DNA from: Pyrococcus yayanosii CH1
GTDB taxonomy: Archaea; Methanobacteriota_B; Thermococci; Thermococcales; Thermococcaceae
Reading direction: 5' to 3'
NCBI RefSeq assembly: GCF_000215995.1
Contig: NC_015680.1
Location: forward strand, 186,001-250,000
Length of the DNA: 64,000 bases
Shown here: positions 12,382-39,868 of the stretch, piece after piece
How the letters are laid out: each line of letters opens with the position of its first letter
Numbering within the stretch: position 1 is the first letter of the stretch
Position numbers and translations under genes: made by a program
The notes under the pieces: generated by a model
What the model was told of the DNA's origin: nothing
Databases searched by the model: none
What the model saw: the letters and a program-made list of their open reading frames with translations, nothing else

Positions 12382-12417
12382 TGCGGTGCCGTAGGAAAAG
12401 CTCAGGCGGTGAGAATC

Positions 12418-13419
12418 ATGGCGAGGGACGAGGTGCGCAGGCTTCCCGCGGACGTTAAGAGGGAAGTTCTCATCAAAGACGAGAAAGCCGAGACGAATCC
12501 CAAATGGGGATACCCCCCTGAAAAGAGGCCCATGGAAATGCACATGCAGTTCGGAGTAATAAACCTCGACAAGCCTCCCGGGCCGACAAGCCACGAGGTC
12601 GTCGCTTGGATAAAAAGGTTATTTAACCTTGAGAAAGCCGGTCACGGGGGAACCCTCGACCCGAAGGTTAGCGGCGTCCTTCCAGTTGCCCTTGAAAGGG
12701 CCACTCGCGTTGTCCAAGCCCTCCTCCCCGCCGGTAAGGAGTACGTGGCTCTAATGCACCTCCACGGCGACGTTCCGGAGGAGAAGATTTATAGGGTCAT
12801 GAAGGAGTTCGAGGGAGAGATAATTCAAAGGCCGCCCTTGAGAAGTGCCGTCAAGAGGAGGCTTAGAACGAGGAAGGTTTACTATATCGAGATTTTAGAA
12901 ATTGATGGCAGAGACGTCCTCTTTAGGGCAGGTGTCGAGGCGGGAACCTACATAAGGTCTCTCATTCACCATATAGGCCTTGCCCTCGGTGTTGGAGCGC
13001 ATATGGCCGAGCTAAGAAGGACAAGAAGCGGCCCCTTCAAGGAGGACGAGACCCTCGTAACTTTCCATGACCTCGTGGACTACTATCACTTCTGGAAAGA
13101 AGATGGCATAGAAGAACACTTCCGCAGGGCTATTCAGCCGATGGAGAAGGCTGTGGAACATTTGCCGAAGGTCTGGATAAAGGACTCGGCGGTAGCCGCG
13201 GTGACGCACGGTGCCGACCTTGCCGTCCCGGGCATAGTCAAGCTACACGCGGGCATAAAGAGGGGGGACCTCGTGGCGATAATGACCCTCAAGGATGAGC
13301 TCGTCGCCCTGGGAAAGGCCCTCATGACTAGTCAGGAAATGCTCCAGAAGAGCAGGGGGATAGCTGTGGACGTTGAGAAGGTCTTCATGCCGAGGGACTG
13401 GTATCCGAAGATGTGGTAG
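12418..13419 (+). CDS. cbf5: tRNA/rRNA pseudouridine synthase Cbf5 (H/ACA RNP)
   Basis: Catalytic subunit of 333 residues of H/ACA ribonucleoproteins and a stand-alone tRNA U55 pseudouridine synthase. The TruB-type domain has GHGGTLDPKVSG with the catalytic Asp near 81, and FRAGVEAGTYIRSLIHHIG. A PUA domain ends the protein (VAAVTHGADLAVPGIVKLHAGIKRGDLVAIMTLKDELVALGKA). ATG 12418 is preferred over GTG 12409 because GGTGA lies just before it and homologs begin MARDEVRR. Partners Nop10, Gar1 and L7Ae are encoded elsewhere. Confidence 0.96.
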   Translation: MARDEVRRLPADVKREVLIKDEKAETNPKWGYPPEKRPMEMHMQFGVINLDKPPGPTSHEVVAWIKRLFNLEKAGHGGTLDPKVSGVLPVALERATRVVQALLPAGKEYVALMHLHGDVPEEKIYRVMKEFEGEIIQRPPLRSAVKRRLRTRKVYYIEILEIDGRDVLFRAGVEAGTYIRSLIHHIGLALGVGAHMAELRRTRSGPFKEDETLVTFHDLVDYYHFWKEDGIEEHFRRAIQPMEKAVEHLPKVWIKDSAVAAVTHGADLAVPGIVKLHAGIKRGDLVAIMTLKDELVALGKALMTSQEMLQKSRGIAVDVEKVFMPRDWYPKMW

Positions 13420-13552
13420 AAACTTTGCCAAGCAAAAGTTGCTGGGGAGCTATTCTTTTGTCCATTCAATTACTCTGGCTTCTTTCGTTTCATTCTAGTC
13501 GTTTTGTTATCGTTGGAAATTGAAAACGCTATCGAACTTGTAATTGGAAAAG

Positions 13553-13597
13553 CTTTTAAGGATTTTGACGTTACATGTAGTGATGATCTCTGGAGGT
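13553..13597 (+). promoter_or_regulatory. Promoter and ribosome site of the secreted cysteine-rich protein
   Basis: CTTTTAAG (13553-13560) predicts a start near 13583, and GGAGGT at 13592-13597 precedes ATG 13605. The 185-base spacer from cbf5 is AT-rich compared with its surroundings. Confidence 0.55.
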
Positions 13598-13604
13598 ATT
13601 TCCA

Positions 13605-14591
13605 ATGGAAGGCCGGGCTAAGAAGGTTTGTGTTGTCCTCTTGCTTGCCATGATGTTGAGTCTTCAGTTTGGGACTGTTCAGGAGACGAAGGCTTTAACT
13701 GATAACGCCACGAGCATAACCTTCAGGAGGGCTGTGGTTGCTTGGTACGATGAGAAGAGTAGGCTTCAGATGAACGTCACTTGGATTAATCAAACCATAG
13801 ACTTCGCGAACTTGACTAACACTTCCTGTCCCTGTCACAACTCAAGTTCCTGTGCTTCCAACTTGACTGCAAACTTTAACGTTTCCGTGGTCACGCTCTA
13901 CAACATGACGAAAAAGCACGAGCAGTTACTGTTCTTTGGGATAACAATTTATAACGGGACTTTCAACTACACCATGTACGCGCTCGTTTACAGGGCTGAG
14001 AGGAGCCAGTACAACTTTACCCTCGTCACGAGGATCTTCACTGATCCTGAGACTGGAGCGTACAAAGTCTTCCTTACTGGAATGAACATTGCTCCGAATG
14101 ATGAAAACAAGGTCGTTCTTGTTGCTGACACTATTGTCACTAGGGACAACCTCACGCTTTCAGAGTACTACTGGACTCTGAACAAGATTCTCATGAAGCT
14201 TCGCAGGGGTGACGAGACGGGCTGGATTTGGGGCAGGAGTGCGTACGAGCTGAGGCACCTCTTGCACTTGGTGAGGCTAAAACTACCAGAATACAACCAG
14301 CAGAAAGCAATGGGGTTAACAGCAGTAACTGATGTAATTGGAATAACATTAACCTGCATAACATATCCCAAGCACATAGATTGGTGGTGTGCAATAACCT
14401 CCTGTGCAACGTCAATAATACTCGGCGTGTTAGAATGTGGTGAATGTGCCGCAAGTCTTTTAGTAAGAAAACCAAATACTAAAGCATGTGCGGCATGTGT
14501 AGCTGCCATTGGCAGTATCAGTGGAGACTGTGGTAAGTGCTTTAGTGACTGGACAACAGTCTGTATTCCAGGGTATGGAACACCCGCATAG
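13605..14591 (+). CDS. Secreted protein with sequon-rich domain and C-terminal ten-cysteine domain
   Basis: I do not recognise a named family with certainty. The 328-residue protein has a signal peptide (hydrophobic core 8-25, possible cleavage after ETKA near 30), a central region of about 200 residues with some 13 N-x-S/T sequons, and a C-terminal hydrophobic domain (about 235-328) with ten cysteines spaced 10-4-10-2-13-2-10-2-7 and no sequons. The layout, with an exported leader, a ~200-residue middle and a ten-Cys peptide of ~80 residues, resembles the halocin C8 precursor, but the spacings differ. DNA of the cysteine domain is AT-richer than the first part. A peptide toxin precursor is an inference. 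Confidence 0.7.
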   Translation: MEGRAKKVCVVLLLAMMLSLQFGTVQETKALTDNATSITFRRAVVAWYDEKSRLQMNVTWINQTIDFANLTNTSCPCHNSSSCASNLTANFNVSVVTLYNMTKKHEQLLFFGITIYNGTFNYTMYALVYRAERSQYNFTLVTRIFTDPETGAYKVFLTGMNIAPNDENKVVLVADTIVTRDNLTLSEYYWTLNKILMKLRRGDETGWIWGRSAYELRHLLHLVRLKLPEYNQQKAMGLTAVTDVIGITLTCITYPKHIDWWCAITSCATSIILGVLECGECAASLLVRKPNTKACAACVAAIGSISGDCGKCFSDWTTVCIPGYGTPA

Positions 14592-14602
14592 GTGATGGTA
14601 CC

Positions 14603-14950
14603 ATGAACTTCATGTTGGCCGGAAACATAATCTCGGCTCTGATGTTTCCTTTACTTTTATACTATTCAATCTCGGCTGTAACGTCCCGAAAATTTTGGAA
14701 ACCTCAAACTTGGGCAGTACTTGCGGCTCTTCTCATGTCGGCTCGAGGATTATACAGCACTGCAGTTTATTTTAACATCATTCCATTTTACTCGTTTGTC
14801 GATAAATCGTTTAATGCATTGACTGTATTATCCCTGATTATAATGTTGCTGATAGCGGGAAGAAATAGAAAGACTATCCGATCCGAGGAAGAACGTTTTC
14901 AAGATGGTAATCGGTCAAACCATGAAACCAAACGGAAGCTGATTTTTTGA
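14603..14950 (+). CDS. Small membrane protein next to the cysteine-rich protein
   Basis: Unrecognised protein of 115 residues with about three membrane segments (near 4-24, 35-56, 68-86) and a charged, Arg/Glu-rich tail of about 30 residues. ATG 14603 follows GGTGATGGTACC only 11 bases after the upstream stop, so the two genes are probably cotranscribed. In peptide-toxin loci such partners often give immunity or export, which is the inference here. Its 3' end abuts an eroded copy of part of the upstream gene. Confidence 0.6.
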   Translation: MNFMLAGNIISALMFPLLLYYSISAVTSRKFWKPQTWAVLAALLMSARGLYSTAVYFNIIPFYSFVDKSFNALTVLSLIIMLLIAGRNRKTIRSEEERFQDGNRSNHETKRKLIF

Positions 14951-15087
14951 GTTTATACGCTGGCGACATGATTATTACCCCCAACAACCTCCTTCCGGAG
15001 TACTACTGGACTTTGGATCATGGGCTTCACTCTCAGGATGCCTCTCTTTATGCACTTGGATGGAGTATGGCGCATGCGCAAGAATAG
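14941..15087 (+). pseudogene. Eroded fragment of the secreted protein gene
   Basis: In the frame ending at TAG 15087 the sequence reads GDMIITPNNLLPEYYWTLDHGL. This matches ADTIVTRDNLTLSEYYWTLNKIL inside the protein at 13605-14591. Only about 40 codons remain. There is no signal peptide and no cysteine domain. It indicates a former second copy of the gene. Confidence 0.65.
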
Positions 15088-15132
15088 TTTGGGAATCCTT
15101 TTACTTCTTTTTGCCTCTAAGGCGTCATTCGC

Positions 15133-15318
15133 GTGAGTCTTCAGCTGGAGATGGTCTTTTTCATGGTGCTTATGGGTTTCCTTGTCTGAGGAATCCGCAA
15201 CGATAGTATTTCATTCTACGTTCTGGGAGCGGCTGGGTGGATATGGCTGGCTGTTGTTATTGCGACAGTTTTGCTGTGGCTGGAGAGTGGTTCATTGACT
15301 AGAACTTCTTGGACATAA
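15133..15318 (+). pseudogene. Interrupted small membrane protein gene
   Basis: From GTG 15133 the frame encodes VSLQLEMVFFMVLMGFLV, then TGA at 15187, then in the same frame FYVLGAAGWIWLAVVIATVLLWLES and a stop at 15316. Two hydrophobic segments separated by one stop suggest a dead two-helix protein. No selenocysteine machinery is expected in this group, so read-through is unlikely. It may belong to the duplicated toxin-like locus. Confidence 0.4.
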
Positions 15319-15323
15319 CTTAC

Positions 15324-15332
15324 CTTTATAAA
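15324..15332 (+). promoter_or_regulatory. TATA box of the methyltransferase gene (leaderless)
   Basis: CTTTATAAA lies 26 bases (centre) before ATG 15354, so the mRNA should start at or next to the initiation codon. This fixes the start and rules out an in-frame ATG at 15309. Confidence 0.6.
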
Positions 15333-15353
15333 CCCCTCAACGAACCATCTCAT

Positions 15354-15941
15354 ATGAGCCACTACTACTCCGAGAGGCCTTCCGGCCCATTGAGAACTAA
15401 GACTATAGATGTCTGCATCAGGGGTTACTGCTTCAGGTTCATAACCGCCAGTGGGGTCTTCTCCTTCGGCAAGCTCGACAGGGGGACAGAACTCCTTATA
15501 GAGAACATGATACTCCAGCCCGGCTGGAGGATACTCGACCTCGGTTGCGGTTATGGGGCCATAGGTATAGTCGCGGCTCGCTTCGTGGACTACGTTGTCA
15601 TGACGGACATCAACAGGAGGGCCGTGGCGATAGCCAGGAAAAACTTAAAAATCAACGGCGTCAAGAACGCGGAGGTTCGCTGGGGCACCCTCTACGAGCC
15701 CGTTGAGGGAGAAAAGTTCCACTCGATAATAACGAACCCTCCAGTGCACGCTGGGAAGGATGTGCTTAGGGAAATAGTTATAAACGCACCTCGGCACCTC
15801 CACGATGGCGGCCTGCTCCAGATGGTAATCAGAACGAGTCATGGGGCAAAGTTTATTAAATCGCTAATGGAGGAGACCTTCACTGAGGTAAGGGAGGTCG
15901 CGAAGGGCTCGGGCTACCGGGTATATGCCGGGATCGCCTAG
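15354..15941 (+). CDS. SAM-dependent methyltransferase, RsmC/MJ0882-like
   Basis: A class I methyltransferase of 195 residues. SHYYSERPSG opens the protein; LDLGCGYGAIGI is the SAM-binding motif I; ITNPPVHAG is the NPPF-like catalytic motif IV of N-methyltransferases. The family (RsmC, MJ0882) methylates guanine N2 in small-subunit rRNA, so an rRNA target is likely but not shown. The last 15 bases, including the TAG stop, are also the first 15 bases of tRNA-Ser. Confidence 0.82.
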   Translation: MSHYYSERPSGPLRTKTIDVCIRGYCFRFITASGVFSFGKLDRGTELLIENMILQPGWRILDLGCGYGAIGIVAARFVDYVVMTDINRRAVAIARKNLKINGVKNAEVRWGTLYEPVEGEKFHSIITNPPVHAGKDVLREIVINAPRHLHDGGLLQMVIRTSHGAKFIKSLMEETFTEVREVAKGSGYRVYAGIA

Positions 15942-39373: not shown

Positions 39374-39868
39374 TTAAAGCTCTTCGCACTTCGCCTTCTT
39401 CTTTGTTCTATAGAACCAGTCTGCGGCTTTGCAGTATTCGAAGAGCTCTTCTGGCTTGAAGTAGAGATTTATCTCCCTCTCTGCACTCTCTGGACTGTCG
39501 CTGGCGTGGACGACGTTGTATATCGCGTCCCCTATGTCGAGTCCGTAGTCTCCCCTTATAGTCCCAGGCTCTGCGTCCTTCGGGTCGGTGGCCCCGGCCA
39601 TCTTTCTTACAACGCTTATCGCATATCTCCCTTCAACGACCATCACAACGCTAGGTGCCTTCGTTATATACTCTATTAGGGCTTCGAAGAAGGGCTTTCC
39701 CTTGTGCTCCGCATAGTGCTTCTCTGCGAGCTCCCTGTCAATCCATATCATTTTCATTCCGACTATTTTGAGACCGCGTTTCTCGAATCTGCTGATTATC
39801 TCCCCAATCAGACCCCTGACAACCGCGTCCGGCTTTATTATTACCAGCGTTCTCTCGACTTCCGCCAT
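39374..39868 (-). CDS. ndk: Nucleoside diphosphate kinase
   Basis: NDK of 164 residues that transfers gamma-phosphate between nucleotides through a phospho-His. [20 protein letters not shown] at the start, [16 protein letters not shown] near 115 with the active His, and a C-terminal [16 protein letters not shown] 39868 follows GGTGTTTCCC and fits a TATA box near 39902-39912. A GTG four codons upstream is not favoured. Confidence 0.95.

Follow-up and report, generated by a model that had tools for sequence, protein, structure and literature searches.

A secreted precursor with a ten-cysteine core in Pyrococcus yayanosii CH1: a probable allele of a polymorphic archaeocin system in Thermococcaceae

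The window analysed here, a 64,000-nucleotide stretch of Pyrococcus yayanosii CH1 (NCBI RefSeq assembly GCF_000215995.1, contig NC_015680.1, positions 186,001 to 250,000 of the forward strand; positions below are those of the window), contains a gene at 13605-14591 for a protein with a signal peptide, a middle region rich in N-glycosylation sequons and a cysteine-rich C-terminal domain. A first-pass annotation read it as a secreted precursor ending in a possible archaeal peptide toxin, on the plan of halocin C8, whose N-terminal part gives immunity. Comparison with related genomes makes it quite probable that the locus represents one allele of a Thermococcaceae polymorphic archaeocin (peptide bacteriocin) system with cognate membrane immunity genes.

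The precursor and its variable core

The open reading frame (ORF) is intact, starts with ATG and encodes 328 amino acids (aa) with no internal stop. Residues 1-240 contain 13 sequons (N-X-S/T), against a mean of 3.0 in 10,000 shuffles, none of which reached 13, and residues 241-328 contain none. These last 88 residues, hereafter the core, hold 10 of the 14 cysteines of the precursor (hypergeometric P 0.0005), at positions 251, 262, 267, 278, 281, 295, 298, 309, 312 and 320, that is, with spacings of 10-4-10-2-13-2-10-2-7, and are hydrophobic (grand average of hydropathy, GRAVY, +0.69, versus -0.21 in residues 31-240). The first-pass annotation had described the protein in these terms, from the signal peptide, with which our by-eye judgement agrees, to about 13 sequons in the middle region and a hydrophobic, sequon-free domain with ten cysteines, and its description holds. 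Its claim that the DNA of this domain is AT-richer than the rest is borne out against the leader, i.e. the part preceding the core (GC content 43.4% in the core versus 47.6%), although the leader too lies under the window mean of 53.5%; the downstream gene is at 39.4%, and the core stands at the 3rd percentile among 267-bp windows.

With the whole protein as query and E ≤ 0.01 as threshold, 30 of 94 Thermococcaceae genomes had matches, one of which (genome G075, E 0.0047, residues 11-54) was removed as chance; many of the matches end near residue 245. Searched alone at E ≤ 0.001, the leader was found in 29 of the 115 phylum genomes, all of them Thermococcaceae, and in none of the 21 that lie outside this family. 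A pattern scan of 84,980 species, able to detect no more than close relatives, returned three loci, each of them from Thermococcaceae. Matches of the leaders to DUF1935 are weak (E 0.05-0.2 in three of ten leaders), and there is only a hint that the leader is beta-rich.

From 40 fetched regions, 44 cassettes with a readable leader-core junction were obtained, and clustering sorts their cores into 11 types (10 with a looser threshold than the one adopted, 15 with a stricter one). A first clustering without composition correction, which merged 30 of the 44 cores, was superseded by the corrected clustering, and types T2 and T8 were later divided into subtypes, partly by means of the partner genes described below. 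The number of cysteines is even in 43 of the 44 cores and ranges from 6 to 20, sequons are absent from 42, and GRAVY values lie between 0.64 and 1.56. The window core belongs to type T5, together with those of three other cassettes, and the genome of strain CH1 (one contig, 1,716,818 bp) has a second cassette, of type T1 with 16 cysteines. Profile-profile comparison shows no relation of T5 to any other core type; for T10, kinship with the halocin C8-like T2 is probable (hhalign probability 85.7%), and the eleven types are therefore not all unrelated.

Leaders follow core type poorly. The nearest leader carries the same core type in only 12 of 32 full-length cases when 15 subtypes are distinguished and in 14 of 32 with 11 types, and the leader closest to that of the window (83% identity) bears a T7 core. 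Mean leader identity is higher within core types than between them (79% versus 69%), and the decoupling is therefore incomplete. Leader and core thus appear largely decoupled, which bears out the module exchange suggested in the first-pass annotation; a conserved N-terminal part combined with differing C-terminal domains, here 11 core types under one leader, is what is expected of polymorphic toxins.

The T5 core is present in five of the 115 phylum genomes. Its ten cysteines are invariant in all four aligned T5 sequences, window included. The ratio of nonsynonymous to synonymous substitution rates (dN/dS) is 0.06-0.28 over six pairs, with dS above 1 in five of the six, and the core looks to be under purifying selection. 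Gly237 and Asp243, at the leader-core junction, are invariant in two alignments of four sequences each. The window precursor matches no family in Pfam, NCBIfam or PADLOC at E ≤ 10, and its best match among chains of the PDB has E 0.59.

The partner gene, asymmetric loss and the shared site

Eleven bp past the precursor gene starts a gene for a membrane protein, designated imm_T5, which the first-pass annotation did not mention. Homologues occur in six of the 94 genomes, five of them directly after a T5 core and the sixth after an apparent T5 core end at a contig edge (by eye). Neither Pfam (best E 0.91) nor NCBIfam (best E 0.036) gave a match above cut-off for it, the partners of seven other types had none above cut-off in Pfam (best E 0.024), PADLOC gave no match for the window partner either, and a search of PHROGs with the window precursor and partner gave E 0.13 at best. 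In the libraries covered, leader, T5 core and T5 partner thus have no above-cut-off match to a named family.

The arrangement is general. Every one of the 44 cores has behind it, starting within 160 bp, an ORF on the same strand that is 60 aa or longer and has one or more predicted hydrophobic segments. With the longest qualifying ORF taken as the partner and similarity scored by BLASTP at E ≤ 1e-3, 96 of 119 same-type pairs of partners are similar, versus none of 827 different-type pairs; among the 23 unlinked same-type pairs, 18 lie in T2, where each subtype has its own partner, four in T1 and one in T8. For the T5 partners, dN/dS is 0.27-0.38 in three of six pairs and saturated in the other three, and they diverge more than the T5 cores. 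The membrane gene, which pairs by core type, is proposed as a separate, cognate immunity gene.

Loss of the two genes is asymmetric. When 45 cassettes were scored by hidden Markov model (HMM) coverage, 30 had both genes intact, 14 an incomplete precursor with an intact partner and one both incomplete, while no intact precursor stood beside a broken partner; this tally omits core fragments of less than half the model, at least those in L068 (T6), L053 (T3), L047 (T2c), L063 (T3) and L071 (T1). Among the five T5 cassettes, three precursors are broken (L035 by a TAG stop, L043 and L048 by splitting over frames), and the partner gene is open in all five.

The cassette of the window lies between genes which we take to encode a Cbf5/TruB-type pseudouridine synthase and a methyltransferase-like protein (Table 1). 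Across genomes, this site bears nine core types (T2c, T3, T4, T5, T6, T7, T9, T10 and T11), the T6 core being broken. In the window itself it also holds a decayed second cassette (~14974-15294), absent from the first-pass annotation, which consists of a leader-like piece recognised by eye but not matched by the leader HMM at E ≤ 1e-3 and of a T4 partner gene in two pieces. As a control, the HMMs were run on the whole window and gave a stray imm_T6 match (16.2 bits, near 39377) and a second match to the Cbf5 model; partners at the site were therefore counted only at E ≤ 1e-9, and the cassette maps, drawn at E ≤ 1e-3, may contain a few strays. Among 49 further intervals (those at least ~230 bp long whose two flanks share a contig), 14 carry a partner gene, ten of these among the 37 precursor-less genomes examined. 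One of the 14 (L102) also has a T4 core and a leader remnant, and two (L108, L115) have core remnants.

Partner arrays of other types follow some cassettes, for instance in L058 (imm_T1 copies, imm_T10, imm_T2b and imm_T2d) and L071, and truncated tandem cassettes (L046, L047, L058, L071 and others) occur along with orphan immunity-type genes, as is expected of polymorphic toxin loci. Tandem T1-type partner genes or pieces, at least three behind one precursor and some of them broken, were seen in L058, L059 and L062. In L078, L080, L086, L092 and L116, the interval between the Cbf5 and methyltransferase genes is taken up by other sequence, 3.5 to 4.9 kb in length, with no partner, core or leader HMM match at E ≤ 1e-3, possibly further cassettes that went unrecognised. 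Viral contigs, covered by the pattern scan for close relatives only, and plasmids gave no match, so that nothing there points to carriage by a phage or plasmid.

Upstream of the precursor gene, a promoter-like stretch (TATA box and B recognition element, BRE) and a ribosome-binding-like motif were read by eye, and a DNA block recurs in the majority consensus of 32 aligned leader-gene upstream regions (60-80% per column). This block may be a regulatory site.

Table 1. Features of the locus and its flanks (all on the + strand)
Feature	Position in window	Basis or remark
Cbf5/TruB-type pseudouridine synthase (presumed), left flank of insertion site	12409..13419	homologues in 86/94 family genomes
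Upstream DNA block, GTTTTGTTA-GTTGGAAATTGAAAA-like	13501..13526	majority consensus upstream of leader genes
TATA/BRE-like promoter stretch	13548..13561	read by eye
GGAGGT, ribosome-binding-like	13592-13597	read by eye
Signal peptide, residues 1 to ~31	13605..13697	judged by eye; plan common to relatives
Sequon-rich carrier/leader, residues 32-240	13698..14324	conserved whatever the core type; 29/94 Thermococcaceae genomes, identity mostly 60-86%
T5 core, the variable peptide domain with ten Cys, residues 241-328	14325..14588	alignment of four T5 sequences
imm_T5, gene for a membrane protein of 115 aa, proposed to give cognate immunity	14603..14950	directly after T5 core
Decayed leader-like piece (NNLLPEYYWTL)	14974..15027	by eye
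Decayed T4 partner gene in two pieces, 15130-15186 and 15190-15294	15130..15294	imm_T4 HMM, E 7e-4 and 3e-14
Methyltransferase-like gene (presumed), right flank of insertion site	15309..15941	homologues in 88/94 family genomes

Halocin C8-type cores and a second carrier

Halocin C8 reportedly derives from an exported precursor with an N-terminal part of ~200 residues and a C-terminal Cys-rich peptide that has ten cysteines when mature; the N-terminal part (HalI) is said to give immunity. The likeness drawn in the first-pass annotation was checked against the NCBIfam model TIGR04449 (halocin_C8_dom, cut-off 24 bits). Among ten sister proteins with the same leader, four score above the cut-off (45.2, 33.1, 41.9 and 41.9), two fall short of it (19.3 and 20.9) and the remaining four are not matched; L037, one of the two that fall short, attains 24.2 bits in a six-frame search. 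The model matches seven of the 115 phylum genomes, six of them above the cut-off, and only Haloferax volcanii among 14 control genomes. In the genome of strain CH1 (G000), a six-frame search gave no match, and membership of the window core in this family is rejected, the protein matching neither TIGR04449 nor any other NCBIfam family at E ≤ 10. Likewise, the hhalign probability for T5 is 0.2-3.0% when it is compared with the T2 subtypes and 1.5% with T2 as a pool, whereas three comparisons of T2 subtypes with one another give 66-98%, and T5 is accordingly not halocin C8-like. Since four sisters exceed the cut-off and the window core has no match, the carrier serves halocin C8-type peptides as well as other, unnamed ones.

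The general plan of the first-pass annotation, an exported precursor with a C-terminal domain resembling a peptide toxin, is supported by these comparisons. The tie to halocin C8 survives through the sisters with the same leader and fails for the window core, for which the NCBIfam search gave no match. Immunity by the N-terminal part is not supported, as the leader is conserved whatever the core and it is a distinct membrane gene that tracks core type.

A second precursor family, with a different leader, was found at E ≤ 0.001 in 14 of the 94 Thermococcaceae genomes, with weak matches in two, and its members have no match to the HMM of the first leader. In L154 and L155, a T2b-type core followed by imm_T2b stands under this second leader. 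The loci of the family (L148:940-1734, L147:952-1737 and L153-L164) include several Cys-rich cores, some of them halocin C8-like with imm_T2b genes downstream, and an MTAP-like gene (by eye) adjoins the precursor in L147 and L148.

Proposed function and relation to known systems

How such a locus might work can be sketched. A Sec-type signal would export the precursor, and the N-glycosylated, probably beta-rich carrier would hold the attached peptide soluble and harmless before cleavage. A protease would cut near the G-x5-D junction (residues 237-243), and the freed peptide of ~85 residues, presumably with five disulfides, would insert into the membranes of related cells without a matching membrane protein; in the producer, the 115-aa protein would give protection. 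According to PMC12893001, the active form of halocin C8 is a released C-terminal fragment and the protease is unknown, which fits the plan proposed for the window precursor. More broadly, we rather favour a combinatorial bacteriocin system, in which a glycosylated carrier, and besides it one or more carriers of a different kind, are loaded by recombination with at least 11 types of disulfide-rich, membrane-active peptide, each with its membrane immunity gene, and halocin C8-type peptides are one option only. Orphan immunity genes would accumulate at a fixed site beside ribosomal protein genes, in an arms race like that of colicin and contact-dependent inhibition loci, fought with small secreted peptides near 100 C.

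Several points weigh against the archaeocin reading. In it, secretion, cleavage, disulfide formation, membrane killing and immunity are inferred from sequence, and neither NCBIfam, profile-profile comparisons, the PDB nor PHROGs could link the window core to a proven toxin. One AlphaFold run with four sequences gave an unusable model (mean predicted local distance difference test score, pLDDT, 32.7). The sequences are related, so that the counts of partner pairs are not independent, and the membrane segments were predicted by a simple hydropathy count. Among the 14 incomplete precursors, L070 is due to a contig end and L067 to a divergent N-terminus only, and some precursor frameshifts could be assembly errors. 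Moreover, the cores of the window and L035 are 85% identical and their partners only 35.5% (L035:3995-4279 versus window 14603-14947), a divergence odd for a tight pair, which we cannot explain otherwise than by noting that the L035 precursor is itself broken by its stop.

The same pairing and allelic variation would be seen if the core were a secreted signal and the membrane protein its receptor, in kin recognition or quorum sensing. We consider such a polymorphic pheromone system improbable, as none of the 45 cassettes has an intact precursor without an intact partner, partners are often retained on their own or in mixed-type arrays, the halocin C8-type cores under the same leader suggest toxins, and none of eight partners scanned against Pfam (that of the window and of seven other types) has a signalling domain. 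It is also very improbable that the core remains attached at the cell surface and serves as a variable module for adhesion or for telling self from non-self. The VARTIG immunoglobulin (Ig) proteins, as described in PMC8416519, are indeed glycosylated secreted proteins of the same order with a hypervariable C-terminus and adjacent membrane genes; the window protein, however, is small and lacks the C-terminal motif D[ND]NxxxG[GD], and the cores are hydrophobic and Cys-rich, with halocin C8-type cores among the sisters.

Two further possibilities concern single parts of the locus. The precursor plan would equally suit an N-terminal immunity protein with the downstream gene as a passenger, as with HalI of halocin C8, but the leader is conserved and bears little relation to core type, whereas the downstream gene tracks it and persists without the precursor; this arrangement is very improbable here. 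That the Cys-rich domain binds metal or acts in redox reactions is almost certainly wrong: CxxC pairs are present at 278/281, 295/298 and 309/312, but the sister cores have 6 to 20 cysteines in other arrangements, no known metal-binding or enzymatic family, of the kind named in the first-pass annotation as a ground for dropping the toxin idea, was matched in the Pfam, NCBIfam and PDB searches reported above, and the domain is predicted to lie outside the cell. The archaeocin system remains the preferred reading.

If this is right, the family predicts, gene by gene, which strain inhibits which and which gene protects, so that archaeal antagonism becomes directly testable in the genetically tractable Thermococcales. 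It would also provide a number of peptide families without a name, disulfide-rich, presumably heat-stable and each with membrane partners, and would make halocin C8-type peptides one option in a modular system and not a single-purpose gene. Makarova et al. 2019 (mBio) reportedly expand the halocin C8 family in archaea and list archaeal polymorphic toxins; our literature search by title and abstract found no paper on the leader family, an earlier mention in that article not being excluded. Warfare among hyperthermophilic archaea is hardly described in the literature searched.

With the halocin C8 family, the locus shares the exported precursor, the ~200-residue N-terminal part and the hydrophobic, Cys-rich C-terminal peptide, here also with ten cysteines. 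It differs in that the window core has no TIGR04449 match and is not detectably related, that immunity is apparently conferred by a separate membrane gene, and that one leader bears many core types. As to VARTIG proteins, PMC8416519 likewise reports, from Thermococcales, a secreted protein with a hypervariable C-terminus whose subfamily is tracked by downstream membrane genes; unlike them, the window precursor matches no Ig-domain family at E ≤ 10 (Pfam), has 328 aa versus mostly more than 500, and is without the DNNxxxGG motif. Unlike polymorphic toxins, the window protein has no recognised toxin domain (nuclease, peptidase) in Pfam, NCBIfam or PADLOC at E ≤ 10, and the precursors are small, with disulfide-rich hydrophobic peptides. 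Like the polymorphic toxin systems outlined in PMC8416519, the family combines a shared N-terminal part, an exchanged C-terminus, an adjacent partner that pairs by core type, truncated tandem cassettes and orphan partners, and functionally it is comparable to a polymorphic toxin system based on peptides of the archaeocin type.
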